A DNA stretch of 64,000 nucleotides. Source: Owenia fusiformis (lineage: Eukaryota > Annelida > Polychaeta > Sabellida > Oweniidae). How positions within the stretch are numbered: position 1 is the first letter of the stretch; the number at the start of each line of letters is the position of its first letter. The translations under genes were made by a program, and so were the position numbers. Below, in pieces: positions 11,401 to 43,100 of this stretch. The notes under the pieces were generated by a model. It saw only the letters and a list, made by a program, of their open reading frames with translations, was not told the DNA's origin and made no database searches. The DNA is taken from the NCBI GenBank assembly GCA_903813345.2, contig CAIIXF020000010.1, positions 27,180,425-27,244,424 of the forward strand, in the 5' to 3' direction.

Positions 11401-14175
11401 TATCAACACGATGCAAGAGCCTGAAAGGAAATCTTGTTTGTACAGCATTATGTGTGTGTGATGGCAATTGTTCTTCATAAGGATACTGCAACATACCAAA
11501 AAGTAACTATGATACTGATAGACACTAGTATAAATCCTTCTATTGATAAGATTAATAAAACTATGATTTAAAAATGTGTGCAAAGTGAAACTAAAGGAAC
11601 TATGAAACAGATATAGATAGTTGATATATGGAGTCTAACTGCACTCAGAAGCCAAAAGAAACCACAAGTCGAGCCATATCGACCATTTTTTCTGGATATC
11701 TAAAAGATGGGTGTGACTCAAAACAAGCCTTTAACAGTGAAAAAGGTGAAAAATAATAGTCATGTGAAGCATTAGATATAGATGTAATTTTAAAATCATA
11801 TATCACTTATTTGATTTACTCCTGCTACTGTGATATGGTGCAAAATATTCAATACAAGAAAAGTGGGCGTCGCCCATCGCCACCCTTTAACAGATCAATC
11901 GAAAATCAATGGTATTTCATATTTTTACTTCAACATTAACTTCTTAACATGATAAGGTAATATTAAATTTGAAGTATGAGCGCGAGCATAATTTAGTAAA
12001 AAAAATTGTGTCAACATTTTTTTAGCCCCCCCCCTCCGTGACCATGGGGGGGGGTAAGAATTGTAAAATTAGGGTAGTTCCTATGGAGCGATTTTTTGGC
12101 ACAGTTGCTTTATTTAAAGAGTAGCAATCAGTGATCATTTGAGGAAAGTTTCACGATTTGTTCCGCAAACGGCGATTACTTTACACTATTTATCCCGCTA
12201 TACGGTAAATACGTACAGCACGGTATTGCGTTACTAAAATGACCTGTAATATAGATATCGCAGGATATCACATTGCAAAAATTACATGTTATGAAGGGTA
12301 ATTTTACATGCACTCGTCATTTTGCTAAATATTTACAATATTCAACCCTTTCGATGCTATGCCATCTATGACGATCCCAAAGGCATTGCAAGTTGGATCC
12401 CAAACATGATCATATCTAATGTTGCTCTCTTGATATTCAACGTCATCATTCAATTACCTTGATGTTGAATCTTTGGCCATTTCGGTGAAAACCTCAGTCC
12501 CTAGATTCCATCCACCAACAGCTAAGAGTACCTTTAAATGTGGATACTTGCTCTTCAAATCTGTAACTTGCTTATAGCGACCTGCAAAAGCATGACAACC
12601 AGAATAGCGTGATTAGATATATTGGTGGAAAGTTCACCATGATTTGTGACCTTGACCTCATTGAAATTAATATCTCTACCTTGATGATCCATCTAGCTAT
12701 CAATGTGTTGGTAAGAGAGTAAAATCCTTATAAAAACTAGCTCTGAAAGAAAAAAGCGTATTGTGCTTTCCAATTGAAAACTAATGATCAAATAATTACT
12801 CTTGATGTAGAAGTATTATCTCAATGTATCTTTACCAAAACATTCTCCATAACTTATATTATAAAGTCATATAAAATGAGTGTGGATCAAACTACTAAAC
12901 TTACCATTGTTGCCAATGTCATTCCACTCGTAAGGTGCCAGCACCCCCTCTTCGATCTTAGAGCAGCAGTATATAATGTGTGTGCAGAGGGTGGGGTCAA
13001 TGTTCTCCGGGTTGAACTTGGCTTCTTCTATAGGGCGATACTGGGACCAGTTGGTATAATAACATAACACGGGGGTGGACGAACCAAGACCTACCAGTAG
13101 ATTAAAAATAATGCAATTAGAACTTGGTATAATAACATAACACCGGGGTGGACGAACCAAGACCTACCAGTAGATTAAAAATAATGCAAATAGAACTTGG
13201 TATAATAACATAACACTGGGGTGGACGAACCAAGACCTACCAGTAGATTAAAAATAATGCAAATAGAACTTGATATGAGGTCATCTGCAATGCTGCTGAT
13301 TATACTTTATAAGGGGTCGTGTGTTATGCTGTGATTATTATACTCTATAAGGGGTCATTTGTAATATTTGCTGATTATACTTTATAAGGGGTTGTGTGTA
13401 ATGCTATGCTGATTATACTTTATAAGGGGTCATGTGTAATACTATGCTGATTATACTTTATAAGGGGTCATGACCATGTGTAATACTATGCTGATTATAC
13501 TTTATAAGGGGTCGTGTGTAATACTTTGCTGATAATACTTTATAAGGGGTCGTGTGTAATACTTTGCTGATTATACTTTATAAGGGGTCATGTGTAATAC
13601 TTTGCTGATTATACTTTATAAGGGGTCATTACCATTTGTGTAATACTATGCTGATTATACTTTATAGGGGTCGTGTGTAATACTTTGCTGATTATTCTTT
13701 ATTAGGGGTCATGTGTAATACTTTGCTGATTTTACTTTGTAAGGCGTAATGTGTAATACTATGCTGATTTTACTTTATAAGGGGTAATGTGCAATACTTC
13801 TGATTTTACTTTATAAGGGGTCATATGTAATACTATGCTAATTTTACTTTAAAGATGTTATATCTTCTGTTGTGCTAATCACACCTTATAAGGGGTGGTG
13901 GTGTCTAATTTGTGCTGATTATAGTTTAAAATGTGTGCTGATTATACTCTTTTCCACTATCTTGGGTACTTTATAAGAAGCCATGTGTAATCTCGTAATG
14001 CTGTGCTGGTTATACTTCATGAGACGCGATGCGAAATATTGTTTTATTTCGAAAGTTACGTCTAATGTTGCATCCAGAGAGGGATAAAATCCATTACAAT
14101 ACTTGACTTACCATTGGATAACTGCGTCCATATTCCAAGTAAAAGGAGCAATGTGGGAAGGGTATTTATTTGCAT
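5429..14175 (-). CDS. Secreted GH18 chitinase, partial at its 3' end
   Basis: Hydrolyses beta-1,4 GlcNAc polymers (chitin); secreted. Coding exons in transcript order: 14175-14112, 13090-12905, 12581-12458, 7716-7578, 7299-7175, 6328-6205, 5967-5782, 5551-5429. All have AG/GT borders and their phases fit, giving 357 residues. Exon 1 starts [14 protein letters not shown], a signal peptide; TTTCAG just before the ATG suggests an upstream 5'UTR exon. GH18 marks in order: [13 protein letters not shown] (strand 1), [10 protein letters not shown], the active site [12 protein letters not shown] (DxxDxDxE with the catalytic Glu), [16 protein letters not shown], and [15 protein letters not shown]. The last 30-40 residues of the barrel, and any chitin-binding domain, were not found between 1 and 5428; they may lie beyond the edge or be lost. 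The GH18 assignment is certain. Chitinase versus a lectin-like relative is settled by the intact DxDxE. Confidence 0.93.
6885..6950. repeat. GACGGAC-type simple repeat
   Basis: Short degenerate tandem repeat of GACGGAC and GACGAAC units in chitinase intron 5, probably the tail of an old interspersed element. Confidence 0.5.
9214..11468 (+). pseudogene. Broken copy of a multi-copy invertebrate protein family (LDHTNYARW / HEEAD / Cys-rich tail)
   Basis: Intron-free coding remains in a few frames. In order they show [15 protein letters not shown], a [15 protein letters not shown] block, a [10 protein letters not shown] block, [34 protein letters not shown], and [13 protein letters not shown]. 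After these come [18 protein letters not shown], then [28 protein letters not shown], and a cysteine-rich end (CGCKKQC, CTALCVC) read in a shifted frame. From memory, proteins with these blocks are found in many copies in cnidarians, molluscs, echinoderms and hemichordates and have no assigned function. The acidic HEEAD, DSD and TGCDT positions recall PIN/FEN-like nucleases, but that is inference. The copy has several breaks and no clear start, so it is unlikely to make a full protein. It lies inside the inverted-repeat unit at 8004-12206. Confidence 0.7.
11470..12040. other. Non-coding right part of the inverted-repeat unit
   Basis: AT-rich sequence between the Cys-rich end of the broken family copy and the right terminal repeat. 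A C-rich run next to a G-rich run occurs near 12026-12055. No gene seen. Confidence 0.35.
12205..12285 (+). repeat. Short interspersed repeat, copy A (second copy inverted at 14341-14412)
   Basis: CACGGTATTGCGTTACTAAA followed by a TGACCTGTAATATAGATATC block matches, in the opposite orientation, 14341-14412. The block is partly self-complementary (GATACCGTGCGG near one end, CCATGCGATATC near the other in the second copy), as in very small MITEs. It abuts the right arm of the 4.2 kb unit. Confidence 0.5.
13051..13269. repeat. 73-bp tandem triplication across the 3' splice site of chitinase exon 2
   Basis: Three near-identical 73-bp units lie at 13051-13123, 13124-13196 and 13197-13269. The first contains the real 3' splice site and the first 40 bases of chitinase exon 2 (minus strand; exon end at 13090). 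The other two repeat the same acceptor and exon piece ([10 protein letters not shown]) in intron 1 upstream of it. Sequence differences between copies are only a few bases. Confidence 0.9.
13275..13990. repeat. Minisatellite, about 38-bp unit, roughly 17 copies
   Basis: Tandem units built on GCTGATTATACTTTATAAGG followed by GGTCATGTGTAATACTAT. The array is regular in the middle and decays to the right. It lies in chitinase intron 1, right after the exon 2 triplication. Confidence 0.9.
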
Positions 14176-14340
14176 CTGAAAGTAGAGACAATCCGTAAAT
14201 AAAAACACGATACACGAAATTCCATGAAAAGTTTTATTATAATCTAAAACTAAAATAAACTAAAATAAAAAAGGAAAAATTGCGAAACTAAACCTAAATG
14301 CAATCTCGTGTTGATAAGTAAAATAACGTTAAAAATTCAC

Positions 14341-14412
14341 CTGATACCGTGCGGTTTCTATATAACAGATCATTTTAGTAACGCAATGCCATGCGATATC
14401 TACGGTACACCT
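14341..14412 (-). repeat. Short interspersed repeat, copy B
   Basis: Inverted relative of 12205-12285, with ATTTTAGTAACGCAATGCC at its core and near-palindromic ends. Located just upstream of the chitinase signal-peptide exon. Confidence 0.5.
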
Positions 14413-14654
14413 CATTAGTGTTTACATTAGGTAATTTCAACTTTAAAATCATCTTATTTATGGGGTAATTTCACTTGACACGGTGGGTGAAAAAAGTTGT
14501 ACGTGGACAACTACTAATTTGCGGTAATAGAGAACATCATAGATCATCACCTGATATAAATTCAGACAATGCGCTCACTTTTTCTACTAGGCCTACTAGT
14601 AAATCTTAATTTACATCCCTAGACTACCCTCGATAAGTTTGTCAACTCCCAGAT

Positions 14655-15170
14655 AATGTGTAAATTAGGGATTTAAGCCTTGGACTCAGTGGATTGTGTG
14701 CTGAACCATTCCATGAAGATGTTGTTTTCAAATCTTTGCATGACCGCGCAGCGGGAATGCAAAGTTTGGGAAACAACATCTGAGTGGAAATAAGCAGCCA
14801 CAATGCATTGGGCTTTTGGCTTAAATTCTTTTCACACATTGTAAAATACTTTCTACAAAATCATCTAAAAGGAACGAAATTACTAAAAGAACACATTCTC
14901 AATGAGTTTTTTTGCCAAGGGTCAAGTTGGCAAGTCATCAAATCCAATGTGAAAAGTCCATTCATCACCATGACAACTGTTTAATTAGTGACCTTGAGTG
15001 TGTTATTGATTATTTCACACACTGTTCTCTATGTGAAATACTGTGTTCGGATTGGCTGGAATCAGACAAACCTTGCGCATGCCTAGCTATGTGTGAAAGC
15101 CTGTTTATGTTGGGTGGTTTGAAAAAATCACCGACTCTGTCTCATATTTTTGGACTAATGCAATGAAGGA
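14655..15170. repeat. Interspersed repeat, copy 1 (second copy 17595-17965)
   Basis: Shares long blocks with 17595-17965 in the same orientation: TGGGCTTTTGGCTTAAATTC, TTCTTTTCACA, CAAGTTGGCAAGTCATCAAA, CATCACCATGACAAC, and a TGTGAAATACTGTGTT block followed by GGATTGGCTGGAATC. The left part is an imperfect foldback (ATTTAAGCC against GGCTTAAAT). A separate 64-bp palindrome (GATGTTGTTTTC to GAAACAACATC, 14719-14782) is present only in this copy and looks like an insertion. Confidence 0.7.
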
Positions 15171-15407
15171 ACAAAATAAAGATTCAAACACAATGAGTAG
15201 GCTTTAACACGCTTTCAGAAAAAAAACTCCAGCTCTTGCTTTTTCATCCAAGAATAAATTTTGTAGATCCAATACTTTTATTTCTATTACTAATTATATA
15301 ATGTATTTATTTATTAACTTCAATTTAATTCTAAGTATTTGCCTGTCATAGTAGCCCGGACATGATTTATTAGGTTTCACTGATTTATCATTGTGAGAAA
15401 GCAATAT

Positions 15408-16058
15408 CACGGTGTTATAGCATGACGGTTACGTCAAGGCGATTTGCAAGATTTTGCGGTAACGATAACAAAAAATGGCGGACGGGAAAGGCAGCATGTC
15501 CTCTTTCTCGCCCGTAGGCAAGTTTCACAGAAAAGATTTCCTTTTAAACTAGTTCCATTTGGTGACGTACGTATGGATGATTATAAAGACTGGGTCAAAT
15601 CTGCCAGGTGGTCTACAAGAAGCAAAATATAAGCTGTAAACCTACCGACTGAGACATCCAAGTTCATAATTTTTAGTCCATTCTCGTGTTTTCTCAGAAC
15701 ATGTGCCTCAAAATATTAACTGTAAGTAAACTGTGTATAAACAAGCCATAAAATGACAAATCCAGAACAGGAACGTGGTGTATATTGTAAATAATAAGGT
15801 TTCAAACAAAATGTCGTTAGACGACTACGTATGAATTCTATGGACGGTAACGTACCACCTGGCAGATTTGACCCAGTCGTTATAACCATCCATATATACG
15901 TCACCGAATGGAACTAGTTAAAAAGGAAATCTTATCTGTGAATCTTGCCTACAGGCGAGAAAGAGGACATGTTGTCTTTCCCATCCGCCATTTTTTGTTA
16001 TCGTTACCGCAAAATTTTGCAAATCGCCTTGACGTAACCGTCATGCTATAACACCGTG
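15408..16058. mobile_element. Foldback MITE with 205-bp inverted arms
   Basis: Arms at 15408-15612 and 15854-16058 are near-identical inverted repeats starting CACGGTGTTATAGCATGACG. The spacer is about 240 bp. Both arms carry AACAAAAAATGGCGG and the TGACGTA segment. No transposase reading frame is present, so it is non-autonomous. No clear target duplication was seen at the ends. Confidence 0.85.
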
Positions 16059-16059
16059 G

Positions 16060-20350: not shown

Positions 20351-23300
20351 TTAGGATAAACCCAACCTTTCCTGAGCATAATAGAATCGCTGCTTGATGA
20401 ACCTAAAAAGTTCATATTCCAAACTCAACTTGTCAAGGATGGTTGAGCGAGTATTCTCGCCTGGGAGTTCATGGGAGTTTTCAAACTCATGGTATTCACC
20501 TGCAATTATAATAAATAAACTTTTTTCAATAATCTTAGACACGTTATTACTCGTTTCATTAGATCAGCAATATCATTTACCCCATTATTTAGAATTATAT
20601 CCCTATTATAAAACACAATTGCTTGCAAAACAATAGCACTTATCCCATTATTTAGATTTATCCCCATTATGAAACATAATCCAAAAACGCGACCCCTAGA
20701 ATGCATGATTCATACGATACTTACTTAATGCATCATACAGTGCAGTCACCCCTGTGAAATAGAATGGAAGGATTTGTTCGAATAGTCTGAGAGATCTCCG
20801 ATAGTCTTCCATTAGTCCTATCACGGCATAGTGATTCACTATATTCCTCATTGCTTGGTGTAAGGCCTCGCGACTCTTCAAACTTTAACATGTTTAAAGA
20901 AACACAATTTTAATACAATTTTCAAGAATTTCTTGGTATTCTATATTCGAACCAGATGTTTGTGCGATTTGGGGTCTCTCTTAGTAAATCACTTTCTCGC
21001 TCATTCCTCTTATATTTTACAAAAATGGCAAATGATTAACTCTTTGTGGGTGTCTCTGGCCACCAGGAAAAGCTTGGAAAGGCGAAGGTGTACATCTTGA
21101 TTCAAATAATATTGATTAATACTTTAGAAATCAAAGCTAAACATGTGCGAAAGAATAAAACTAAAATAGAACACTGCTTATGATAGAATTTGCAATTTGG
21201 ACGACTGTGGCCTAAATATGATTTTTGCAAATTAGATGATATCCCATGGGCCTTCAAGAGAGGTTGAAATTCCATGGTTATCCGTATCAGCAATTTCATA
21301 GAGTTCTCATCCTAGTTCTATTTAGCTCTTGGTCAAACCTTCAACTTAAAGAGCAATATACTGCATTGCGTACATAGCTGCCAGTATACTGTATCTTAAA
21401 GAGTGAAGAATGCAATGACATGAACCATGAACAAGTACCTGCATAAGGAGTCGTGTCCACAAAAGTAACTCACAAGGGTGTGTGTTTCGTTGTGTCCCAT
21501 ACATTCTGGATCATTATCTACTATGCACTCTTCAAATGTCTAAAACAAAGCATGGATATATAAGGGTTATGTACTGGGAGGTTTTGGATATGGGGTTTGT
21601 CCAGAGGGATATATGCATATCTACCTGAGGGACCGTAGGGACCGAAGGTAGATGTGCATATCTCACGAGGGATGAAGATGAACCCTATATCCAAACCGAC
21701 CGTACGTAACTGCTTTATCCTATACCAAGTTGAGTTTTCAGGGGCATATAGTCATTTCAATACTACAAGGTGTAAAAATATACAAATCGTTCATATGCAA
21801 AGTCATTTTATTGCATTATCGGAAGCGGGAAGATAAGCACCGGAAGCGGGGAGATATGCACCGAAGCGGGAGATATGGCGGGAGATACGGCGGGAGATAT
21901 GGAGGTTCTGGATATGGACCTCAAAATCAGGATACGGGATATATCTTACCAACTTATCTCCCTAAAACTCTACTTGGCATAGGATAAATAAGGGTTATGT
22001 ACTGGGAGGTTTTGGATATGGGGTTTATCCAGAGGGATATATGCATATCTACCTGAGGGACCGTAGGGACCGAAGGTAGATGTGCATATCTCACGAGGGA
22101 TGAACCCTATATCCAAACCGACCGTACGTAACTGCTTTATCCTATACCAAGTTGAGTTTTCAGGGGCATATAGTCATTTCAATACTACAAGGTGTAAAAA
22201 TATACAAATCATTCATATGCAAAGTCATTTTATTGCATTACCGGAAGCGGGAAGATATGCACCGGAAGCGGGAAGATATGCACCGAAGCGGGAGATATGG
22301 CGGGAGATATGGAGGTTCTGGATATGGAAACCTCAAAATCAGGATACGGGATATATCTTACCAACTTATCTCCCTAAAACTCTACTTGGCATAGGATAAA
22401 CGTACATTAGCATATCAATCATTGGTAAAGGGTAAATGGGAACATTTGAATACTCAATCTACTCATGGTGCAATCGGAAAGCAGACCGTCAGCATTTACC
22501 CTGTTCCTTTGCTCATCAGTATAGTACACGTTTAAGAGCCCTGTATTTCGCTTGAAGTAGTAAAGCGACGCAAGTCTCTCCAGTGGGTCTCTGACTAGGT
22601 TAATATACACTGGCATGGGCTGATTGAATCTTGTGAAGTTTACAAAGTAGGTGTGTCTCTCGAAGAGGAATGGTATGGTAAACTTGGAGAACTTGTCTAC
22701 CAACCACATCTGAAAAAATGGACTTAATCATTTTAGACATTCCATCAAAAGGAGACATATTAACAAGTGTTATTAACTTTATGATCATATATGGAACAGT
22801 AAAACCTTTTTATCCGAACACCTGGCTAATCCAAACATCTCCCAATCTGAACACTTATTTCCGTTCCGTTTTTTCCTCCTACTGACTCTCATGTTTAAAA
22901 AAATAAAATATGAAAACCTCCCAAAAACAGTGACCAATCATATTTGAAAAAATAACCTGCTGAACACTTTTTATAAAATATCACACGGAACATACAAAAT
23001 TGCTCAAATATTTGAAAGTTAATGCTGATTTGTTTTTATCAAAACTTTTGGAAACCCCCTAAAATATGGTCTCAATCATAATGGGGCTTTTGGCAGCATG
23101 ACTAGATTCATTTGAATCGAATATTCAAATTACTGGAGTGCCATAAAATTATGTGGTCAAAAGAATTATATACATTTATTGAGAATATTTTCAAAGGAGG
23201 AGGGAAAGTATCGCAACAGGTTTCAGACAATTATATGTTGGATTTTGGCTATTTTCTGAGGATTAAACAGGTGCATATGTTAGACCAATGCATTACCTCC

Positions 23301-25125: not shown

Positions 25126-28100
25126 ATGACTTCTGTTCCTGATCGATTTTGTTATGTATATAGCTGTGATCTGGATGTAAATGTGCAGATAAAAATGTAA
25201 GTAAATGTAACATTTGCCAAATAAATCACAATCGCCCACGTTTCAACAATACGATTATGTACCTGAAACAATTTCCAGACTGTTCCAATTTAGACTAGAT
25301 CTATTTATTTTTTTCAAAAATTGAATTGAAATGAAAATAAATTTAATTTCAATGATTATCGATAGCCTACACAGTTCTAAATTATTTTGTGACTGCTTTA
25401 ATCGTGACAAAATCAGACTTAGATAAAGGATATATGATACTGTACCTTACCTTCAAGAAGAATTTGTGAAACCTTTTTACATTTCCATCAATTTATTTTT
25501 CTGGATGGTAAGAAAAATGATCTTTACAGTTTGTACAAACAAGAAGCCGATTTGAAGCACGAGGAAGCCTGGGCGTAGCACCTGGTATACCTGGCTGACT
25601 GGTACTTACTCGAGTCTCTAGCTTACAGCTAGACGAAACTTCATTAGGCATGTACTGTGCTACACGCACCTACACGCACCTAAAACTCATTTTTAATAAA
25701 TTTTATAAATATTTTTAAGAATATTAATCATATTTAGGATGAAGCGTTGCTTGTTTGGATTTAGATATTTCAAAATTTCATTTCGGAGTTTGACACATGG
25801 TGAAATTTTCTCGCTGTAGCTAAAAATGGCTTCCGGTTCTGGACGTGAATAACATTTGAAATTATTCTCGCTTAAAGAAATCAAATATAACAATAGATTC
25901 AGACGGGGATGTGAGCTGATGTTCTTCAAATCTATACATAAAGGTATATTTCATATTATTATGCCATATTTACTGTGCGTGTGACACAATGATTTACAAT
26001 ATTTATAATACTAAGGCAGCTCAATCTTCCTCCTCAAAGCCGGAATATAGAGAAGGCTTTGGACCGAAGTAAACTGGTACACACAGGTGTACCAGATGGT
26101 TGAAAATACACTCCAAATAATCTACAACCTAACTTCACTTCACTTTTTCACTTCACTCAACTTGTATTCCCAATGCCCGGGGGGTTCACTATACAAGACA
26201 TTCTTTAACAACAACACTATATACAAAATTGACGGTGGTCCTAGGCTGAACCCTCAGATATCAATATATTCCAATACCGATCTGTCAAATTTCGAAGTGT
26301 TCCCATACCAACCAAAATAACGCCCAAACACCATAACAAATGTCAAAATATAAGACCAATGCCATACCACATGTCCAAATATAGGACCAATGCCATACCA
26401 AATATCAAGATATAAGAGTGCCAAGGCCATTCAAAATGTCTAAAGCCCTGTAGACATGTAATAAGAAGGCAGATCTTTGAGGAAAACGATCCAAAACGAT
26501 CCTACTAGACCAATGCCATACCTCAAGTGGCTCGTAATATATTTTCTATGACCATTCTCATACCAGAAAGTAGAAAAATCCAACCATTGCCATACCTCAA
26601 AAGTCATAATTTTGGGGGCGTTCTCATACCAGATCCTAAAAGTTGGGTCCATTACCATACCATACGTCAAAAAAGGTACCCCACGTGCAAGGAGGATCCC
26701 CGTCAAGGTTTATATACAGTGAACCCCTGGGTCTCAATGATGGCATTCTTCGCATAAAATAGCACTCCACCCATGGGAAGATGTAGACTTTACATAAAAT
26801 CTCTGACGTAAATCATAAATTTGAACAGCTTATTTGCAAATGTTTGCAAGAACTTTGAATCTAGCATATTATCAATATTGTGAATTGCCTGTGGATACTT
26901 GGGAAATAATAAAACAAATGTTGAATGATTGAGATCCTTGGGGCAGCGTTAAATTGCACCCTCAAAAATACATACACGTACAGCAATCCATCTCTACATC
27001 ATTCGTTCTATATTATTATATACTTGCAGCGGCACTCTAGAAGGTGTACGTGATAAACCTAGCTACAATGAGCTGATCGCTGATCCCATGTTGAAATACT
27101 CTGGTGTCTACCAAGATGACTGCTCTGATATGTATGTGACGTGCCAGGTCTACTCTGATGGTAAACCACTCGCTCTAGCCACACAGACATCTTATAAAGC
27201 ATTCACAACTCGCTGGAAGTATGTATTCTGTACCATGCATATACAACATTGTATGTAACACTATATGTGTCTGTGCCATCATTTGAGACTGATTACTCTA
27301 TCAATTAAGGAGGAATACTTGTACCTACAACTATTTTTGATGTTTATGAGTATTGTTTATCAAGTAAAATTTATTCTTCATTCTTTAAAATGTACAGTGT
27401 ATTGTAATGACTTTAGCATGAATAAAATGTCCCTTGTTGTTATGGTTTCAGATTGTGATTATAGCACTTGAATGGTGGGGGGGGGTATGAGACATTGTTT
27501 CTTTTCACGTTTCATAATACTTTGGGATAGTTGGGGTTTGTTTAACTTATGACTCAGACTGGTATTCTTTTAGATGTTTTCTTAATTGCTGTCATCTGTA
27601 ACAATATTCTGTTTACTTAAAGTGGTAAAAAAAGACAAGAATGAGAAGACTAAAGGTTAAAAAGTCCATCTATTTACAATATTTTTGCCGATACAATGAA
27701 CAATTATGTACAGCATGCATATCATCACACTTTCTCAAAAAATATTTCAGATTTTAATTCACGAAATGGTTTGAATGTTAAGGTTATCAGTTATTTCACA
27801 GTAATTTTGAAACGGGGTCTTTGACTTTTTAATTTGAGTGATTATGCACATTTTCCCATTTGTCAAACTTGGCACAACTACATGTATTGCTGCTACTGTA
27901 AAATGCTCACAAGATGAGTCTAGGTTAGAACCCTTGATATGGTGTGACATGAAATTCATGAAATCATTTTCACAAATCTTACATACTTTATTTTGCATTA
28001 TCACTAGAATTTTGCATTCAGATAACAAAATTATTATCAGTGATAAAATCAAGAATCATATAACTGTATAATCAGCTTTAAATTAAACTAAATTGCTATG

Positions 28101-31100
28101 TTTTTTCTGTTTTAGCTGGAATGAATGGTTGACCCTGCCAGTGAAATACAGTGACTTGCCACGAAATGCCCAAGTGGCACTGACCATATGGGACATATAT
28201 GGCCCCAGGAAAGTAGTTCCAGTAGGGGGCACTGTTGTTTCATTGTTTGGCAAAAATGGGTAAGATTTCATGTACATATCATTTTGTCTAGCCTTGCTTG
28301 TTTCAGTTGTGGTATTGTGAAGTATGGAAGTGTTAATATAAGCAAATGCCATTATTAATGTCATCAAAACTTATTTAGAAGGTGTGAGATATTTGCACTT
28401 TGTCTTGTATATTTGGATGTGAAGACCAGTGGAGAATGCTTGCCTTTAGACATTGTATCTGATACCTCAGAACAAAGAGGAGATTACCAAACAATGTAAA
28501 TGATCACTGAAATCACCAATTGATTGACACCAAATTGATTGCAGAACATTTGCACAGGTTGTTCTCATATTAGAAGAAGAGATACCTTAGTTTTGAATTA
28601 AAAATGTTGAAGTGAAATTAGTAAAAATTCATGAATAACTATAATTTCCATTATTGTCACATTTTGTGTAAAAATTAACTAACTTTAACATGATCGTATC
28701 ATGCAAATTTATTCAGCTCGTGAACAGTTCATAAAGCACCTCTGGGAGCCAGGTAACGTTCGCTTACATATTGGTGTAATATGATTCGCAACCACCTGTG
28801 AACCAATCAAAACTCAGAACTCTATACCCTTTCTAATTTTACTGCACATGTTTTTTTACTGATATAGAGAATTAATATGTGAACATATGAGACGTTTTTA
28901 GTTATACCTTTGAAATTTGATGATAGTAAATGTAACTTTTTCATCATATTACTCTTTGATGTTCTAAGATGAATTTGAGAAATGTTGTTTTAGGACGTTT
29001 CGTCAGGGTATGCATGATCTCCTTGTCTGGCCTAATGAAGTATAATAGTATATACCACATTGAGAAATGTTGTTTTAAGACGTTTCGTCAGGGTATGCAT
29101 GATCTCCGTGTCTGGCCTAATGAAGTATAATAGTATATACCACATTGAGAAATGTTGTTTTAGGACGTTTCGTCAGGGTATGCATGATCTCCCTGGCTGG
29201 CCTAATGAAGTATAATAGTATATACCACATTGAGAAATGTTGTTTTAGGACGTTTCGTCAGGGTATGCATGATCTCCCTGGCTGGCCTAATGAAGTATAA
29301 TAGTATATACCACATTGAGAAATGTTGTTTCAGGACGTTTCGTCAGGGTATGCATGATCTCCTTGTCTGGCCTAATGAAGTATAATAGTATATACCACAT
29401 TGAGAAATGTTGTTTTAGGACGTTTCGTCAAGGTATGCACAATCTCCGTGTCTGGCCTAATGAAGTATAATAGTATATACCACATTGAGAAATGTTGTTT
29501 TAGGACGTTTCGTCAGGGTATGCATGATCTCCCTGGCTGGCCTAATGAAGTATAATAGTATATACCACATTGAGAAATGTTGTTTTAGGACGTTTCGTCA
29601 GGGTATGCATGATCTCCCTGGCTGGCCTAATGAAGTATAATAGTATATACCACATTGAGAAATGTTGTTTTAGGACGTTTCGTCAGGGTATGCATGATCT
29701 CCCTGGCTGGCCTAATGAAGTATAATAGTATATACCACCTTGATACTTGATACTATATACCACCTGTATACCACCTTCAGGGCTTGCATTAACGGCGTCC
29801 CTTACATGTAAGTGACGCAAAAAAAAATTGTAGGACGGAAAAATAAAAAATATTTCCGTTTTTGGGACGGAAAAAAAATTGAGTCAAAACTTTGAACATT
29901 TTTTGAAAATCTTGAAAATCTCAATAGTTGATCATGTTTGACTTCTTTGAGGTGTATATTAAGATCAAAATATGTGAGATTTACAACTTTATTTTGAGTA
30001 AAAAAGAAAAAGAATGCAGAAAAACGAACTATTGTAATGGGCGATAATAGCATAATTTGCATGTGACATATTTTTCTCACTGAAAAGCTGATATAAAACC
30101 TTCAAAATGAGTTCAATTGTACAAATGATGCATACTTACCTAGGTGAAGTAGTCTATTTGTGATTATATAACGTCAAAATGGTCTAATTTATGATATAAA
30201 TCAGAGGATTCTGATCATGTAGAAAATGTACACTAAATTACTGAGCGTCAGACAAATTCATACTAAAAAATGTTCTTATTTTTTCAAGCAGTTGTTCAGT
30301 GCAAACAGCAAGTATAAAGATAATCACAGTATAATAGTACTTACTATAACAGGCTGGAGGTTACATAACATAAGTGAATTGAATATAAAGAACATGTTTA
30401 AATCACAGGGCATGAATGGCAACATTTTGAAAACACATAAGACATGTAAGATCAAGTCATGCACATTCCAAAATAGCCCATTATAGCTAATTTAGCTAAT
30501 TTAGCTTATATATTGGAGGACACACTTTTTTCGGTCGGGACTCACTTTTTAAAATTTTTTCCTTCATTGTGACTCACATTTTTCAGAGCCTAATGCAAGC
30601 GCTGCACCTTGTTGTTTTAGGACGTTTCGTCAGGGTATGCACGATCTCCGTGTCTGGCCTAATGTTGAAGCAGATGGGTTAGAGCAGACAACCACACCTG
30701 GCAAAGTTGGTGGAGCCACTGATGAAATGAGTCGACTTGCAAAGGTATCCATTATGTATGACAGAGAAAGGCCATGCATTGAGTGTTTAAAGCATTGGCA
30801 TATCTTTTTAGGGGGCAGGTTTAAATTTCTACCCCTGATGTAAAAAGAAATTGGTTACTATGTTGTGGGTGCATTATGGATGTTTATAAACCCAACAAAA
30901 TTCTCAACTTATAGGTGCATTAACTATCAGTTCAAAGAGTTGTTAGTCAGAGAGTGTCAGTATCTTTAAGAGAGTAACCTGCCATTCCATTTAATTTCTC
31001 CTATAAGTTCTTTTCTGCTTGAAATGGACACAGTTTTCCGGCAGCCATTTTGGTGTTGAATTGTAATGTATTCTGATTATATTGCAAAATGTATTCATGA

Positions 31101-34100
31101 ATAATGATTTACTCATTAATTTCCTGAAAACATTATCTTCTTGATAAATTGTGGCCACTTTTACTAATTTCATTTTCTGCCTTTCACATTTACTCAAAAA
31201 TTAATTGAACAATGTTAGTGATATGGTATTTGTAAGCACTTTGAAGCAATTAAGATTCTGATGATAAAGTAGAATACCTCTGTTAGTGGAACACTTTTTA
31301 GAGTCCCAAGACAACTAACTTAATGTTAAATGAACCTCCAAAAGTGCAACACCTCCTGAGTGGAATACTTTTTAGAGGTACTGAAGGTGTTCCACTTAGA
31401 CATGTTTTACTGTCAACTACTGTAGGAAGATATAAAACTATTATTCTAGTTGACCAAAAAGCACAGGAATGGGCACATGGTGAAGGTGGATTGGCTGGAT
31501 CGACTGACATTTCGTGAGATTGAGGTCATCAATGAGAAACAGAAGAGAGACTCCAATTTCATGTACCTTATGATCGAGTTCCCACAGATACATTATGATG
31601 GCACAAAGTTTGCTGTTGTCTATTTCGAAAAGGTAAGATGATGAATACAGCTGATTTTGGGCTTGTTGATTAACAATTTTCTTGATTGTTAGTTTTAGTT
31701 TTTATGGTTTCTTTATTTTACTTTACAAAATTATCTACAAATGACAGGGCCGAGGCTGAAATCAGCATTATTGGCCCTGTTAATACAAAGTTTATTCAAA
31801 TTTACAAAATAGCAACAAAATGACTACCAACATATATGTATGCATGGCAGGAATGTGTTAAAACTATATAATTATATCAATGCATTCACACAAAAAGGAT
31901 GTAAAATGCTTCAATATTGAAGAATTGCATGTTATGCTAACTCCATCTCTGCCATACATTAAGATATTCAGCTTTTGCTCTATAGAGCATCCTGTAAAGA
32001 AAATGTTCATTTCTGGCATGTTCCTGAGTTCCCCCCAAAGTTTCTCTCTTATAACATTCAACAGAGGGCATTTGAAGATTAGATGCTTTGTAGTTTGTTG
32101 TTTAAAACCACAGATGCATTTGGGACTGTCAATACCTTGAAAATTATGTTGAAAAAGATGACCAGTAAAAATGAAATCACATCTTGTTCTATTCAGTAAA
32201 ATTTCTTCTTTTCTTGTAAGATCCAGTTTTGTGGTTGTTAAATGCTTCATTGTTCCTGAATATTTACATAAATTGGTTTTGAAAGTGACTCTTGATGGTG
32301 CACTTTTTAGATAATTTGGAATGGCTTCCCATTCTCTTATGGCATTTATTATTGGTGACTTTTGTGAACGTGCAGTTAACTTTGGAATAGTGTATTCTCT
32401 TGATTTTCCCAAGTTAATATAATGTTGCTTATTTTGATAACTATCAAAAATTTTTTGAACATAAGTTGGGACCAATTTCTGTCTAACATCATACATTAAA
32501 CGTAAACGTTTCTCCTTTCTCCGCTCAGACAGGGTATTCCAATTTAGACATGATTGTTAAAGTCAGTAGTATGGAAAAGTTCTGTATTTGTTATTAATTC
32601 AATATACCCACAGATGGGTAAAGAGAATAAATAGATGTAAATTTACATTGAGTATTAATTGAGATTAATTGAAGAGCGTAACATAGACCTTATTTTAGAA
32701 TGATAATGGGATTGTCCCTGTATAATAAGACAATATACTAAGATAGATAATATTTCAGGATGCTGATGAGATGGTCCCTGTAAGACAATATGCTGAAATT
32801 GTTACTGTGCCTGACCCTGAAATAGGAAAGGTATAAACTTATTTTTAGATTCCATCTTAAGTATAAGTTGAATATTCATTGAGAACTGTATGTTTTGTAG
32901 TATTTGAAGGGATTAATATGTACTTGAATGGACTGTAATACAGACTACATAGCCCCATGTGTGTAAACGCTTCTTTCAAAATTCCAGGAAATTTTTCAAT
33001 GCAAGAACAGACTAGTGCCAAGATCTAATTAGGTTTTGGACATGCTGGGTAAATCACTTGGTGGTAATTTTGAATTTTTGATAAAAAGTGCAATATTTAT
33101 CGCTGTGTCTATTTTTCAAATATTGTGTGATACAAGGTGCCGACACTTTGTCATGTTAAGCCATGTCTTGTTTATAAGTGACAACAGATATAACTGCAGT
33201 ATTGATAGTTCATTTATAGTAACTCATTATAATTTCTTTCTTCACTTTTCAGGAGAATCTTGTAGAAAGCAAGCACCACAAACTTGCCAGGAGACTGAGA
33301 AGTGCACCCACAGACAAGGACCTCAAGCCGAATGCTGCAGTGAGAGATCAGCTTAATGTGAGTATACAATGAATACTGAATAGCATTTAAATGGACATGT
33401 ATCTAGCTTAATGTGAGTTTACAATGAATACTGAATAGCATTTAAATGGACATGTATCTAGCTTAATGTGAGTATACAATGAATACTGAATAGCATTTAA
33501 ATGGACATGTATCTAGCTTAATGTGAGTTTACAATGAATACTGAATAGCATTTAAATGGACATGTATCTAGCTTAATGTGAGTATACAATGAATACTGAA
33601 TAGCATTTAAATGGACATGTATCTAGTTTAATGTGAGTTTACAATGAATACTGAATAGCATTTAAATGAACATGTATCTAGCTTAATGTGAGTATACAAT
33701 GAATACTGAATAGCATTTAAATGGACATGTATCTAGCTTAATGTGAGTACTTTGCACATAAAATACATGTACATGTATTATAAATTCAATGTGAATATAT
33801 GGACATTCACTGTGTGATATTCTTAATTGTTCATTGCCATCAGTTTTAAACATATATTTATACTCTCCTTGTCTCTAGTATGTGTTTTGCATCACTCATC
33901 ATAACCCACATACTTTACAAGGCTCATTAGGGGCCTAAGATTCTATTTCTTTGAATGATGATGTAAAGGAATGATTCATTCATAGGAAAACATCACTTAG
34001 GCATCAACATTCATGTAAATGTATAACCATCCTGTTGTTTTTTATGTTAGGTAATTGTGAGCTACCCTCCAACCAAGCAACTAACTAGTGAGGAACAGGA

Positions 34101-37100
34101 CCTTATATGGAAGTTTAGATTCTACCTATCTGCACAGAAAAAGGTATGACATATCGTATCACAATACAGTGTTAGTTTTGCACAAATCTGTATAAATTGT
34201 CTTGTGGTTTACCTGGTTTTCTGTTTGAAAATGGGTCACATTCTGAAACGTAATTGTCATGCATATAAATATTTAAGAAGCATGTAAGCATGTTTAAGAT
34301 CAAAACTTCAATTTTTTGAGTCAAGTTTGAAAAACTATCAAGACAGAATTGAAGGAATTTAGGCTTTTCTGCATGATTTCAACCTTTAAATTTCAATGAA
34401 ATTAACCAAAAAAGAGGCCTTCTTTTGGCCTTCCATCTGTGATACTATGTGTTTTGTGTATTCCACTAGGCCCTGACCAAGTTCCTGAAGTCAGTAGCAT
34501 GGAGTGTGCCTCAGGAGGAGAAGCAGGGCTTAGACATGATGTACAAGTGGAGCCCAATGGATGCTGAAGATGCCTTAGAGCTTCTGTCTCCTGCATTCAC
34601 CAACCCAGCTGTGAGAAAGTACGCTGTAAGCAGACTAATGCAGGCAGATGATGAGGTAGTGTATATGTATGATAGAGCACAGTAGAACCTGTATATCTGA
34701 ACACCTTTCTAATCAAACATCTTTCAATGCAAACGCTTTTACTCTGGCAAAAACATCCATGTTCAAAAACCTTGATGTGTAAACACATGTTAATCCTAAC
34801 ACTTTTGGTTAGACCCAGTGGCATTCGGATGAAACAGGTTTTACACTTACTACCTTCTTCTTGTATCTTGTTACTCTGCTCATGTATTCATGTACTGATG
34901 TATTGTCTTCAGGAACTACTGTTGTACTTACTACAACTGGTGCAGGCACTGAAGTACGAAGACTTTGATGTGATTCGTGAAGGTTTGAACCACATATCTG
35001 CCCCAGTTGAGAGTCCCAGGAAAGAGTCTGATCCCAGTCAACTTGGAGAGGAATCTGATACTCAGTCGCTTTCACAAAGGTTGGTTGTATTACATTGAAA
35101 TTAAAAGCTCCAGTGCACAATTTAGGGGGTTGTGTGTGGAATAGGTGTCATTACCCAAAAATGATTGAAATTGTTTGATTTATTAAAAAATTCACCAAGA
35201 TGCACTGCATCTTGTTGATTCAACCATGTGCCATCCATAATTGATTTGATTTTCATTAAGAAGTCATCTTTTGTCAACATCCAATATTGATACAAAAAAC
35301 AATTTTGTTCTTGTAACTGCATGAGTAAATGAGCCCTAATGGCCTCCCATTAATGGATTAAGGACATAACTGAAAACCTCTGAATCAGACCCTGGTTTAC
35401 TATGTATGCGATGCAACAATGGCACACAAATCATATACTCCTATAGTTAATGTACACATTTTCATATTTTCACTTATTTTCATGTTTTTCACAAATCGGA
35501 AGGCAATTGCACTATGTATTGTATTGTAATATGTATTGTGTTGTAATATGTATTGTATTGTATTGTATTGTATTGTATTTTAATATGTTGCAGGTCTCCC
35601 AGTATTGGATCGAAGGATAGTGGGGATATTCTAGATGAGCTCTCCATAGAGAGACCTTCACACTCTACAACAAATAAACATGTAAGTTATAAACACCAAT
35701 ATATTGCAGAAAAGTTCTACATAACATCGTATGTGGTGGTATTTCATTTACAAAGAAGTTGGTATTTTGCATGATACATGTTAACTAATAGACTATAATA
35801 ACTCTATCCTGTTATTACATTGTAGACTGACCTTGCAACATGCCTCATAGAAAGGGCTTGCAATAACTCTATTCTGTTATTACATTGTAGACTCGACTCG
35901 ACCTTGCAACATGCCTCATAGAAAGAGCTTGCAATAACTCTATTCTGGCAAACTATTTTTATTGGTAAGAAAAATCCATTTTTTTCAAAACCAGTATTTC
36001 CTTTTTCTAAAAAAAACGTTGATGGATTTTATGGGATTATTAATGCTGATGCTAAATTAGCATTTCTTCTGGTTTGTTGGTGTAAAATTGGGTTGCATGG
36101 AATAAATATTTACCTCAGGCTTGTCAAAGTAAACGACCTAGCTATATGCTAAAACCAGTTTTCATTTCTGAATCTTGAGGATTTTGGTGTATATTAGAAA
36201 ACAATTTTTAAAGTTTAAAAGGGCCTTCCATATAATTCTGTCCTTGAAAACAATTCTCTCGAGTTTGGACATGTTGATTTTTCTAGACTTTCAGAATATT
36301 TTGATATGTTATCCAAACCAACCAAACCTCTCCCTCACTAACAATAAAATTGAACCACCTCCCACTAAAAAGCTTGTACGGGCCTAAGGAATAAAGTAAT
36401 TTCAGCTGATCCCCTATTACATTTCTTTGCCAGGTTCTTATTGGTGGAATGTGACGACCAGGACTCCCAGGCCAAAGACCCAAAGGTTATGGACATGTAT
36501 ATCTCAGTATTGAAACGCTTCAGTCAGACACTTAGCAAGGTAAGGTTATGGACATGTACATCTCTTTATCGTATGATCTGTAAAATGAAGCCCTCTGATT
36601 GGTCAGTTATTGTGCTGTACCAATCTGTATTGCTACTGAGGTTGTCCCCGTTGATCATCTCCGTCGCAATACAGAAAATATTGGTACGGAGTGGACAATC
36701 TCAGTAGCAATACAGAGGATCACACGATAAAAATGTTATTGAATGATTTGAACTGCAATACAGGATATATTCTGTCTCGATATTCTGTATTGGCACTCGA
36801 CTTCGTCTCGTTCCAATACAAAATTTCTCGCACAGAATATATCCTGTATTGCACTCCAAATCATTCAATAACTTATAGTATTGAAACACTTCAGTCAGAC
36901 ACTTAGCAAGGTATGATATATCAGTCCAGAGGTTTCATTATTTTGAAAACATTTACACCAATTTTGAGTTTATGAATTGGGAAATATTTATAGATTCCCA
37001 GGAATCAAGATCTGACCTGTACATTGAAAATAAAGCGAATAAGCCTTGGTTAGCTTTTAAGATGTCTAGTTATTTTCTAGGGAGGCCAGGAACACAGACA

Positions 37101-40100
37101 TCGCAGGGCTTGTATAGCAGGTCAGCAGGCCTTCATGGACAGACTTGTGCAGGTGGTTAAAGCAGTAGCAAGGGAGAGTGGCAATAGGAAAAAGAAGGTA
37201 CTGTGGTGCTGGCTTTTAAATTCCTAAAAACCTCACTTCTAGGTCCGTTTTTGTCACGTACCTTAAAAGATGACAATATTTGAGTTATAGCGGTCCTTAT
37301 AAAGATGGCAGCCCAATTGAAACGAACAGCACATGAGTACAGTAACATGATCAGCCTTTAATGACCATTAAGGCAGCATTATAATTACACTAACCAAGAA
37401 TGTCCCTTCAACTACCAATGTATAGTTTCTGCACATATTTATAGGTAGAAAAGCTGCAGTCATTGTTGACAGACCAAGAAGTGTCCCGTTTTAACTTCAC
37501 TAATTTTGATCCATTACCATTGCCCCTTGACCCTGAAGTTAAAGTCAAAGCCATAGCTGCAGAACATGTGACACTGTTAAAGGTGAGTCCTCAGCTATTG
37601 TCTCAGTCACATTTGCTCTAAGGCAACCTAAGGCATTAATTAATGGGATTCAATGCTATTTCTCCTGGCATCTAGTCTATTTCATCCCTTTAACATGGTA
37701 TACATATTTGTAAAAAGTTAAGATAGTTCCAAGACATTCAACCATGACCTCCATTATTACATTTCACTATCAACATTTTGTGTTCGTATTGTAGAGTCAA
37801 CTGATGCCGTGTAAGCTCTACTTCAAGACAGTTGACCGTGACGACCATTATTACATCACACTATTCAAACATGGGGATGATTTACGCCAAGATCAGCTCA
37901 TCATACAAATGATCATCCTAATGGACAAGTTAATGAGACGTGAGAACTTGGACCTTAAGCTCACTCCATATAAGGCCATCGCTACAAGCTGCAAACATGG
38001 TGAATATCTCATATGATGTAATTAGTATGAATATATGATTCACTATTAGTTGATACCATTTGTAGTCACCCTTTAGAGTACCATTTAGTGTACATGTATC
38101 ATACAATGTATTATACTGTTTAATTGAAATATTTTAATTTTTGAATTTTCAAAAAGTTGTAGTTCTTCATTATTAAATTGTAAAGTGTTTATTTTCAGGA
38201 TTTATACAATTCATAGATTCCATGCCAATAGCTAACATAGTTGATGAACACACTAATATCTTGAACTACCTACGCAAATACAACCCTGTAGAAAATGGGC
38301 CTTATGGTATAGCACCAGAAGTTATGGATAACTATGTAAAAAGTTGTGGTAAGATTCAGCAAGATACTATCTGCTTTATTCAATCACTTTGAAATATTAT
38401 ATGCTAGCTTTTGATAAACATGAACCTATACAGTATCACTCTCTAAAGTCCTGAGTGTATTAAACATGAAAAATCCATTAACAATGGAGAACATTGACTT
38501 TTTGTTTTATTACACCATTTCCAGTTCAAATGTACCTTACTGTAAATGTTACTATGATTGTAAACGTATGCATTACTGATATTGCAAAATGAACATAAAG
38601 AAATAATAGTACAAAATCATGTATGCCATCTTTCAACTCAGTTATATGTATTACAGCTGGTTACTCAGTAATCACATATCTGCTTGGGGTTGGAGATAGG
38701 CATCTGGATAACATCCTCATCGCTAACAATGGTAAGGAACTGAAAGAAGAAGTTTACTTGCATTTCTAAACCTAGTTGGCCTATTTAATCTTTAAATGAT
38801 GAAATAATAGCCTAGCTCAATATCTTATCTAGGTTTAGCAAGGCAAGACATAAATTGAAATAGTGTTTACATGTTTACTTAACATATGCCATATTTTGTT
38901 GTCTTGTCTGAAGCTTTTGCGATTTTCTTTAATTAAAGACATTAATATGGGTCGTCGTATTGTAGGCAAATTGTTCCATGTAGACTTTGGCTATATCCTG
39001 GGTAGGGACCCAAAGCCTATGTGACATTGTTCATTGTTTTGCAGGCAAGTTGTTCCATGTAGACTTTGGCTATATCCTGGGTAGAGACCCAAAGCCTATG
39101 TGACATTGTTCATTGTTTTCAGGCAAGTTGTTCCATGTAGGCTTTGGCTTTATCCTGGGTAGGGACCCAAAGCCTATGTGACATTGTTCATTGTTTGCAG
39201 GCAAGTTGTTCCATGTAGGCTTTGGCTATATCCTGGGTAGGGACCCAAAGCCTATGTGACATTGTTCATTGTTTTGCAGGCAAGTTGTTCCATGTAGACT
39301 TTGGCTATATATCCTTGGTAGAGACCTAAAGGCTATGTGACATTGTTCATTGTTTTGCAGGCAAGTTGTTCCATGTAGACTTTGGCTATATCCTTGGCAG
39401 GGACCCAAAGCCTATGTGACATTGTTCATTGTTTTGCAGGCAAGTTGCTTTTGCAGGCAAGTTGTTCCATGTAGACTTTGGCTACATCCTGGGTAGAGAC
39501 CCAAAGCCTATGTGACATTGTTCATTGTTTTGTAGGCAAGTTGTTCCATGTAGACTTTGGCTACATCCTGGGTAGGGACCCAAAGCCTATGTGACATTGT
39601 TCATTGTTTTGCAGGCAAGTTGTTCCATGTAGACTTTGGTTACATCCTGGGTAGGGACCCAAAGCCTATGTGACCTTGTTCATTGTTTTGCAGGCAAGTT
39701 GTTCCATGTAGACTTTGGTTACATCCTGGGTAGGGACCCAAAGCCTATGTGACATTGTTCATTGTTTTGCAGGCAAGTTGTTCCATGTAGACTTTGGCTA
39801 TATCCTTGGTAGGGACCTAAAGCCTATGTGACATTGTTCATTGTTTTGCAGGCAAGTTGTTCCATGTAGACTTTGGCTATATCCTGGGTAGAGACCCAAA
39901 GCCTATATGACATTGTTCATTGTTTTGCAGGCAAGTTGTTCCATGTAGACTTTGGCTACATCCTGGGTAGGGACCCAAAGCCTATGTGACATTGTTCATT
40001 GTTTTGCAGGCAAGTTGTTCCATGTAGACTTTGGCTATATCCTGGGTAGGGACCCAAAGCCTATGTGACATTGTTCATTGTTTTGTAGGCAAGTTGTTCC

Positions 40101-43100
40101 ATGTAGACTTTGGCTATATCCTGGGTAGGGACCCAAAGCCTATGTGACATTGTTCATTGTTTTGCAGGCAAGTTGTTCCATGTAGACTTTGGCTATATCC
40201 TGGGTAGGGACCCAAAGCCTATGTGACATTGTTCATTGTTTTGTAGGCAAGTTGTTCCATGTAGACTTTGGCTATATCCTGGGTAGGGACCCAAAGCCTA
40301 TGTGACATTGTTCATTGTTTTGCAGGCAAGTTGTTCCATGTAGACTTTGGCTATATCCTGGGTAGGGACCCAAAGCCTATGCCATCTCCTATGAGGTTAA
40401 GCAAGGAAATGATAGAAGCCATGGGAGGCATGAACAGTGAACACTTCCTGGACTTTAAGAAATTATGCTACACTGCCTTCCTAGCTTTGAGAAGGTGAAC
40501 ACATTTATGAAAAGTATATCCAGAGACACAAGTAGTAAAAAGTAAAAACAAAACAATGTGGTTTCAACCCTCACCTGGCTAAAATAAAAAAGGATATTGT
40601 AAAAATATGAAATTTATAGTAAGGTAATAGTTAGGTGTGCGTTCATGAATGTTAAAAGAATAAATGAGAATATCTTCAGTTCATGAACATCTTTGATTTT
40701 TGATTTATATTGTATTTATGATAATCCAACAAAGTGATTGATATAATAAAGCCAACAAATGTTCTTTTAGGTCAGCAAACTTAATTCTGAACCTGTTCTC
40801 TCTGATGATTGATGCTAATGTACCAGATATCGCACTTGAGCCTGATAAAACTGTCAAAAAGGTAAGTTAATATCAAAACACTGATACATTCACAAAATAA
40901 TTTTGTGTAATATTGCCCCATATCATTCATTGTCATGTTAAGGTTAATATAACCATGACATCTAGGATACATTGTTTTGTGTAATATTGAACAAATATTT
41001 CACTCTATTGAGGTGAATACCTGTACATCTTTCACAAGTGATATTCCACGAAGCCCGAAGGGCAAGTGGAATATCACCTTGTGAAAGTGCTACAGGTATT
41101 CACCAAAAATAGAGTGAAATATTTGTTTTATTATATCACTGTCTAGCTAAACATCCCTAATATTATTAAGTCATAGGTTAACATTGAAATACATTGAATC
41201 TACTCGGTTCGTCTGCCATTTTGACTTACACTGAACTAAATTATTTACACTGAACAAAAACAAATTCTTTGAAAATTCCCGGGAGCGTGGGATATCGCTA
41301 GATATCTCACGGTTGTCTTATCTGATTAGCATTGCCATTGAATATCGCCAGATATCCCACGACATGTGACCTGGTTTTGACCAATCATACTGTCGCTAGC
41401 TAGATAGTGATATAATAATGCCTCATATCATTCATAGAGGTCAGTCACAGACTAAGGCCTTACAAACAGGATGATAGATATCCGAGACCTGTAATCGCTA
41501 AACTTAAATGGAGGGGCGGAAAGGATAATATCATATCGAACAGGAAAAAGCTTAAGGGGTCGAACATTATCGTGTATGAGGACCTGAGTCCCATGAACAG
41601 GAAGTTACTACAAGAGGTCAAAGAGCACCCAGATATCGAACAACAATGGTCAACAAACGGGAAAATCCTTGGAAGGCTAAGGAGTGGGGACATTGTCCTA
41701 TTTAACGTTGGCAGCGAGGTCAGTGATACGATTACACAGCACCGTCGTAGCAGGGCCAGTGCACCTGACGCAAATACCAGCAGACCACAAACTTCTGCCC
41801 ATCGCGGCGGAGCCAGAGGAGGACAAAGGACATAAACTAGCTTGTCAGAATGGTTTATAAATGACTTTGTCGTCAAAAACTTTCACGCGAGTGGTAGTAT
41901 GAATGTTTTCTATTACCATATGCATGATACATGTACATACATTCATGCATTTCATTGACTGATTTAATTGAGTCGATCCAATGGTTTCATCTAGTGCCTA
42001 TTAATTTTTTTACTTTTCTAGTACTGCATATACTGAACATTCTTGTGGTGTCTAAATATAAGTATTCAAAGTGTGCATCAACAGAGAACATATCTTTTTC
42101 ATAACAGCTGATCTGGTAGGACCACGTGCATTTGTTGATAAACAGTAAGGTCACGCAAGTGCGCATGCGCAATGACACATTTACTGTACAGTACAGTTAA
42201 GTTACCGTGCCAAAGTTTCACATGATTGTCGTTGTTATTACATTTCGGCAATTCGGAAAGATATGGGATAAATTCATTGCAGTAATTTTAAGGTACGTTA
42301 TCCATCTATATTCAAGTTTAGTCACTGTAGCTTTTTAATTAAACTGAACAGTGAATGTGAACTCGCCATGTGTCATGAGCTTTCTAACCAGTACACCGTT
42401 TTTGACTTGCTGAAAAGCCAGAGCCAAATTATTCTGTTACATCGAAAGGCAGTAAAATACCAGCATTTGTATACAAACAGGGCCTATGGATAATGTTTTA
42501 TGCGTGTGTTTTTAGATCTATTTTTATGTTCAACTACTTGCACAGTGTACTGCAATGTTTATAATATAATTAGGTTACATACAGCTATAAGACTACATAC
42601 ACGTATGCGTAATATTGTGATCGATTACCCTGCACACACTTGGTGGCGTCCTTATAGGAGCTATCGGGCCTTCGAGGTTTTGAAAACATAACGCTATTTA
42701 GTGATTGGCTGGCGTATGAAGGTTATTACTTGTTTGCAGAGTGACGGGATAGTTGCTAAACATGAGAGGGTAGTATTTTGTTCAAATTTAACATTGAATA
42801 TCTATCTTATTTTTTGTTGTTCTCTTTTATATCATCTACGATTATAATGAAGCAGTTTGCATTATGTAATGTTACTTGAACTGTTACTTAGTATATGGAC
42901 TGACCAAGAAATTGAGTTTTTTTCCCATTGAACTATAGTGGGTCTTTCCTTGCTGATTAATAGCTTGTTGCATTTATGACATCATCTAGACTTAATACCA
43001 ATGTCAGATCTGCCTGGATTAGTTTTCTGAATATTACAGTTTATGTGACTCTTAGAACTTCTGGCAGGACACTTAACTCTAAATCAGTTTGTCTTGAATT

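Follow-up and report, generated by a model that had tools for sequence, protein, structure and literature searches.

Why do the tandem repeats in this stretch of the Owenia fusiformis genome so often contain a splice site? The window, i.e., the whole stretch of 64,000 nucleotides that was analysed, had been read once from its letters, and the first-pass annotation claimed that eight exon-intron junctions of a chitinase gene and of PIK3C3 were duplicated in tandem. In our study, short tandem duplications of 55–95 bp were found to have repeatedly copied the edge of an exon, the splice site on it and some adjoining intron sequence. The first-pass annotation had also pointed to boundary-spanning minisatellites from amphioxus; such arrays exist and are called mirages. 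They were described in the globin genes BflGb6 and BflGb9 and also in Adh3 (PMC3087553), and another paper adds PGBD5 and cites TnC (PMC3902484). We consider the Owenia arrays to be splice-border minisatellites of the mirage kind, arising from ordinary duplication, selection and exon definition, and we give this reading a probability of about 0.6.

Genes of the window

Three genes of the window were modelled (Table 1); together they contain 64 exon-intron borders and 32 introns. The translation of PIK3C3 was identical, over its whole length, to an 895-aa Owenia fusiformis protein (P0002), the best match after Owenia being that of Haliotis (69%), with Branchiostoma at 65%; amphioxus was rejected on these values as the species from which the DNA comes. 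The GC content of PIK3C3 was 44% in the exons and 34% in the introns. The joined exons of the chitinase gene matched the Pfam GH18 family with an E value of 1.9e-81. No annotated Owenia chitinase was present among the best 120 of 187 protein matches, and the chitinase exons therefore rest on homology to the chitinases of other animals and on GT-AG borders. The gene models of the Owenia genome are described in the genome paper as having drawn on RNA-seq and splice-junction evidence (PMC9977687).

Table 1. Genes, border-carrying duplications and inserted elements of the window
Feature	Position	Strand	Remarks
GH18 chitinase gene	5429-14175	-	8 exons found, 3' end missing
Chitinase exon 2, true copy	12905..13090	-	GH18 reading frame, GT-AG borders
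73-bp array, 3.1 copies, chitinase exon 2 3' splice site	13051..13276	-	TRF
Sulfotransfer_2 protein gene	20354-24328	-	5 coding exons; Owenia annotation exists
PIK3C3 coding part	25126..56400	+	22 exons, 21 introns, GT-AG; joined exon translations
85-bp array, 9 copies, PIK3C3 exon 4 3' splice site	28975..29743	+	TRF, blastn
827-bp inserted element, 14-bp terminal inverted repeats (CAGGGCTTGCATTA / TAATGCAAGCGCTG)	29778..30604		between exon 4 array and exon 4
PIK3C3 exon 4, true copy	30621..30744	+	gene model
60-bp duplication, old, two-copy, PIK3C3 exon 6 3' splice site	32679..32782	+	34/44 columns identical; true exon start 32759
55-bp array, 7.3 copies, PIK3C3 exon 7 5' splice site	33350..33749	+	TRF; true exon end 33357
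65/71-bp duplication, 2.2 copies, PIK3C3 exon 12 3' splice site	35797..35947	+	78/86 columns; true exon start 35891
59-bp duplication, PIK3C3 exon 13 5' splice site	36483..36910	+	true exon end 36539; second donor after 36910
Palindromic MITE-like element splitting exon 13 duplicate	about 36570-36876		41-bp arms, 95% complementary; outer limits by eye
95-bp duplication, old, PIK3C3 exon 16 3' splice site	37724..37872	+	43/55 columns; true exon start 37795; border placed from the period
79-bp array, 17.8 copies, PIK3C3 exon 19 3' splice site	38960..40381	+	TRF; true exon start 40326

Detection of the duplications

The entire window was aligned to itself with gaps at offsets of 20–400 bp, a whole-window scan being chosen so that the search was not restricted to exon edges. 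The score threshold of at least 22 was taken from 30 dinucleotide-preserving shuffles, which gave 0.1 chance matches per window. All eight junctions of the first-pass annotation were recovered in tandem units, at or near the places it gave. TRF contributed five border-carrying arrays with periods of 55 to 85 at these junctions, and the scan added the older duplications at exons 6, 13 and 16. The scan's own overlap list held six of the eight borders (chitinase exon 2 and PIK3C3 exons 6, 7, 12, 13 and 19); the other two were assigned by hand, exon 4 through its unit copies and the blastn search with exon ends, and exon 16 through its 95-bp period. That blastn search, made with 70 exon ends extended by 60 bp on either side (E of 1e-3 or less), returned the same eight borders and no further local duplicate with exon bases in the window.

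Several other matches were considered as border duplications and rejected. None of the eight borders of the sulfotransferase gene carried a duplication above the scan threshold; the donor of its exon 1, a candidate ninth border, scored 19.5 and was absent from the blastn search with exon ends. The match at sulfotransferase exon 3 was intronic, that at PIK3C3 exon 11 was a TGTAT-type repeat lying entirely in the intron, and those at PIK3C3 exon 9 were dispersed intronic repeats. A clean 79-bp array of 25.6 copies at 50507-52530, in intron 21 of PIK3C3, contains no known border; its period is long, and it lies in intron sequence only. Intron 20 of the same gene contains a 22-bp array of 34 copies at 48717-49456 (ATACAACACACTATGGGGAGCA).

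Structure of the border-carrying duplications

Both kinds of splice site are involved, as had been claimed: the 3' splice site is duplicated at chitinase exon 2 and at PIK3C3 exons 4, 6, 12, 16 and 19, and the 5' splice site at PIK3C3 exons 7 and 13. Seven of the 21 introns of PIK3C3 carry a border duplication. At least three copies were present in four of the eight cases and 2.2 copies at exon 12, the other three being two-copy duplications that are older or split. The extra copies were all found on the intron side.

The unit of the chitinase exon 2 array contained 33 intron and 40 exon bases. Its true acceptor lies at 13090/13091, and the acceptor copies at 13090, 13163 and 13236 were equal in score. 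A 38-bp intronic array at 13294-13851 adjoins this array in the same intron. In the exon 4 array, each unit contained the 3' splice site followed by the first 44 exon bases, and the copies were 96% identical to the edge of exon 4 over 55 bases; the array is confined to intron 3 and is separated from its exon by the 827-bp inserted element. The exon 7 unit contained 8 exon and 47 intron bases, with the sequence AAT/GTGAGT in eight of eight donors. The exon 13 duplicate is interrupted by the inserted palindromic element. At exon 16, the exonic part alone is still alignable. The exon 19 unit contained about 22 intron and 57 exon bases. Within this last array, at 39432-39464, the splice site has been duplicated again as a 17-bp unit (TTTTGCAGGCAAGTTGC, TRF).

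The arrays differ widely in age, in agreement with the first-pass annotation, from near-identical units to duplicates with 77–78% of columns identical. Compared with the true exon, the exonic parts of 17 units of the exon 19 array showed 86–98% identity, and the nine units of the exon 4 array 93–98% in their exonic parts; the duplicates of exon 6 (77%) and exon 16 (78%) were old and diverged. The 827-bp element is flanked by CACCTT on either side, and its right end matches 57113-57155 at 81%. The repeats might have been made or lengthened by misassembly, and one amphioxus mirage was reportedly assembled wrongly in a draft (PMC3087553). In Owenia, however, the copies differ by substitutions, their ages vary widely and inserted elements break two duplicates; the inserted elements and the spread of ages point to real successive events. 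The Owenia paper speaks of a PacBio-based assembly, possibly not the one that contains this window (PMC9977687). An assembly artefact is thus very improbable.

Excess of borders over chance

In the three gene spans 18 distinct duplications were counted, of which eight carried a border and ten did not. Border carriers made up 8/11 of the duplications with a period of at least 50 and 0/7 of the shorter ones; of the ten non-carriers, three had periods of 63, 75 and 79, and the period did not exceed 38 bp in the other seven. For these counts, the scan cluster at 13051-14049, which comprises a 73-bp and a 38-bp duplication, was split in two with the help of TRF, the microsatellite at 35507 was entered with the period 17 given by TRF, and the exon 12 unit was entered as 65 instead of the 71 of TRF. 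Clusters outside the gene spans (4540-5265, 59646-59894 and 60878-61479, among others), the cluster at 56444-56542 just beyond the PIK3C3 stop and clusters scoring below 22 were left out.

The null model placed units of the observed length randomly in the same genes, with placements entirely within an exon excluded. None of the P values is clean, and all overstate the case, since the window was picked for its odd look. Among all 18 duplications, eight carried a border against 1.47 expected (P 3e-5), and among the 11 with a period of at least 50, eight against 1.16 expected (P 1.6e-6). When only the TRF arrays with a period of at least 50 were counted, five of six carried a border (P 5.8e-5). 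The exon-dense part of PIK3C3 gave 7/8, with P from 4e-5 to 8e-5 depending on the chosen start; 7/10 when two short-period arrays were included (P 1.5e-4 to 2.7e-4); and 4/4 for the TRF arrays only (P 0.001–0.0015). Without exon 16 the P value was 3e-5, and without exons 16 and 6 it was 3.7e-4. The set without exons 4 and 16 gave 6/11 (P 3.8e-4) or 6/18 (P 0.002), and the set without exons 16, 6 and 13, with the short arrays kept, gave P 0.012. The addition of four weak sub-threshold matches as non-carriers gave P 1.8e-4. The claim that borders are hit more often than chance would allow thus holds within this window.

Tandem duplications might nevertheless be frequent throughout Owenia, with the window being an extreme draw that was chosen because it is striking. 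This is a single window with an odd look, the cases fall in two genes only, the sulfotransferase gene contributes no border above threshold and P is no lower than 0.001 to 0.012 in the stricter sets, all of which agrees with such a draw; the fuller sets (1.6e-6 to 4e-4) and the long-period TRF arrays speak against it, and we regard it as rather unlikely. An enrichment at borders is probable, on the basis of one window.

Selection may hold the exonic copy of a border duplication, and such duplications might then stay recognisable longer than intronic ones and be over-represented among those detected. Exons 6 and 16, which are old and diverged, and the latter alignable in its exonic part only, are what such a bias would produce. 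The TRF arrays, with 89–97% matches, hardly need it, however, and those with a period of at least 50 carry a border in five of six cases; two old, purely intronic duplications of like divergence were also found (31/38 and 44/52 columns identical). A detection bias is accordingly quite improbable as the explanation.

Position of the border within the unit

The first-pass annotation suggested a process that starts duplications at exon edges. If duplication were initiated at the splice site, a unit end would be expected at the border. The distance from the border to the nearer unit end was 33, 41, 24, 8, 14, 2, 17 and 22 bp in the eight cases (the value of exon 6 being approximate), with a mean of 20.1 bp against 18.1 bp under random placement (P of a mean as small or smaller, 0.71). 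Borders thus lie anywhere within the units, as in random placement, and initiation at the splice site is unsupported. A breakpoint at the splice site was found in exon 13 only, where AAGGT is shared.

The splice sites might trigger the duplications through breaks, through stalling at splice-site sequence, or through repair templated by RNA. Such a trigger would account for the excess at borders, for the exon 13 breakpoint, where the 5' splice site has AAGGT in common with the exon, and for the exon 7 breakpoint eight bases from the border. The distances just given, however, are not below random, and both 5' and 3' sites are hit although they have little sequence in common. With regard to the RNA-templated repair named in the first-pass annotation, no pointer was found: the unit copies contain intron (only two bases of it at exon 13), and the inspected copies contained no exon-exon join. 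We therefore judge a trigger at splice sites to be unlikely, and the random position of the border fits duplications that were not triggered by the splice site. Microhomology was seen by eye in a few cases, CAA at the chitinase array and AAGGT at exon 13, too few for a test. The units of exons 4, 7 and 19 contain, by eye, some stretches unmatched in the array flanks, so that simple duplication and duplication with filler look alike in these arrays.

Under the reading that we favour, the duplications would come from ordinary replication or repair slippage, possibly biased to exonic, GC-richer sequence. Duplications inside exons would be purged by selection, and those crossing a border would survive, their copies landing in the intron. 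The surviving arrays would then expand and decay as other minisatellites do. The exonic share of the units had a mean of 0.64 against 0.5 (P 0.09, not significant), and together with the higher GC content of the exons it gives weak hints of an exon bias of duplication. Three of the 11 long-period duplications are purely intronic and the sulfotransferase gene is without a case above threshold, which runs counter to this account, as does the rise of P to 3.8e-4, 0.002 or 0.012 when the weakest cases are left out.

Decoy splice sites

The duplicated borders contain 38 intact decoy sites, 36 of them in PIK3C3 and two in the chitinase gene. Their scores are slightly flattered, as the scoring matrices derive from these 32 true sites themselves. 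The true acceptor of exon 19 is preceded by 18 extra acceptors, which kept AG in 18/18 and equalled the true score in 11/18, so that 19 acceptors stand in a row, 12 of them with equal score. The seven extra donors of exon 7 were all equal to the true donor; both extra acceptors of chitinase exon 2 and the single extra acceptor of exon 12 also scored as the true ones. At exon 4, AG was kept in eight of nine copies, with scores of 9.7–10.8 against 10.0 for the true site. Weaker extra sites were found at exon 13 (9.7 against 12.4) and exon 6 (6.3 against 11.1), and no recognisable extra acceptor was found in the duplicate of exon 16.

The use of any one of the 38 decoys, with read-through to the exon, would lead to a premature stop (36/36 in PIK3C3 and 2/2 in the chitinase gene). 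In PIK3C3 this stop falls at residue 151 for all eight decoys of exon 4, at residue 300 for all seven of exon 7 and at residues 773–781 for all 18 of exon 19; the single decoys of exons 6, 12 and 13 give stops at residues 245, 505 and 589, respectively, and the two of the chitinase gene at residues 36 and 41. The annotated PIK3C3 protein, itself a prediction, is full length, and the site adjoining the exon is thus the modelled one at all seven PIK3C3 borders. This protein suggests, but does not by itself prove, that the decoys of PIK3C3 are passed over by splicing. Exon definition predicts a preference for the splice-site copy that adjoins the exon body; splicing would pair the acceptor and the donor that lie closest on the two sides of the exon, and the outer copies would be ignored.

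Comparison with known systems

The Owenia arrays share several features with the amphioxus mirages. Their tandem units span the exon-intron border and contain exon bases in eight cases (inferred at exon 16 and detached from the exon at exon 4), both 5' and 3' borders are represented, decoys keep AG or GT and the unit lengths vary. For mirages, many decoys that keep AG/GT and unit lengths that vary have likewise been described, and regular splicing is reportedly undisturbed (PMC3087553, PMC3902484). Haplotype length variation and somatic instability have been reported for the mirage of Adh3. The host differs, being an annelid and not a cephalochordate, and in Owenia a third of the introns of one gene are affected. 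The phenomenon is thus already known from amphioxus, and the annelid case and this density appear to be new, no annelid case having been found among the papers listed by searches of open-access full text.

Internal tandem repeats at exon-intron boundaries were also described in human segmental duplications, with changed transcripts and possible new introns (PMC2812944). Minisatellite expansion at exon-intron borders is common to both; however, the human units are 30 bp on average, and the annotated PIK3C3 protein of Owenia is unchanged. In the RdRp gene of potato, an intron gain by tandem genomic duplication has been reported (PMC4974935), in which the duplication likewise gives extra splice signals. 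In PIK3C3, no recent intron derived from the copied exon sequence was found, and none of the extra copies serves as an exon in the annotated protein.

We tentatively propose for Owenia, and possibly for bilaterians generally, that tandem duplication of exon edges recurs throughout the genome and that many introns therefore contain trains of intact decoys. If this is true, new exons and introns could arise continually from such duplications, and nature would have provided an experiment on spliceosomal choice among numerous similar sites, as in the acceptor row of exon 19. If it were general in Owenia, the amphioxus mirages would represent a recurrent mutational outcome in animals and not a cephalochordate quirk. 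With arrays of this kind, two questions could be tested in natural genes, namely whether small tandem duplications arise preferentially in exons and whether exon definition is enough on its own to pick one among many splice sites of equal strength. The arrays would also provide the raw material that is assumed by models of intron gain via tandem duplication.

Dispersed matches and other elements

The arrays do not resemble introner-type mobile introns, the same sequence not being dispersed over several introns within the window: six of the eight border queries matched their own array alone. The intronic part of the exon 4 query, which is the end of the inserted element, also matched 57113-57155, and the query of chitinase exon 2 gave one weak extra match of 49 bases (75.5%) at 37002-37050. 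In intron 5 of PIK3C3, a long open frame on the minus strand (31867-32556) resembles, by eye, the terminal part of a non-LTR reverse transcriptase; a 160-aa piece of it gave no Pfam match. Two apparently inverted copies, at about 15430-15620 and 15850-16045, were seen by eye within 15420-16050.
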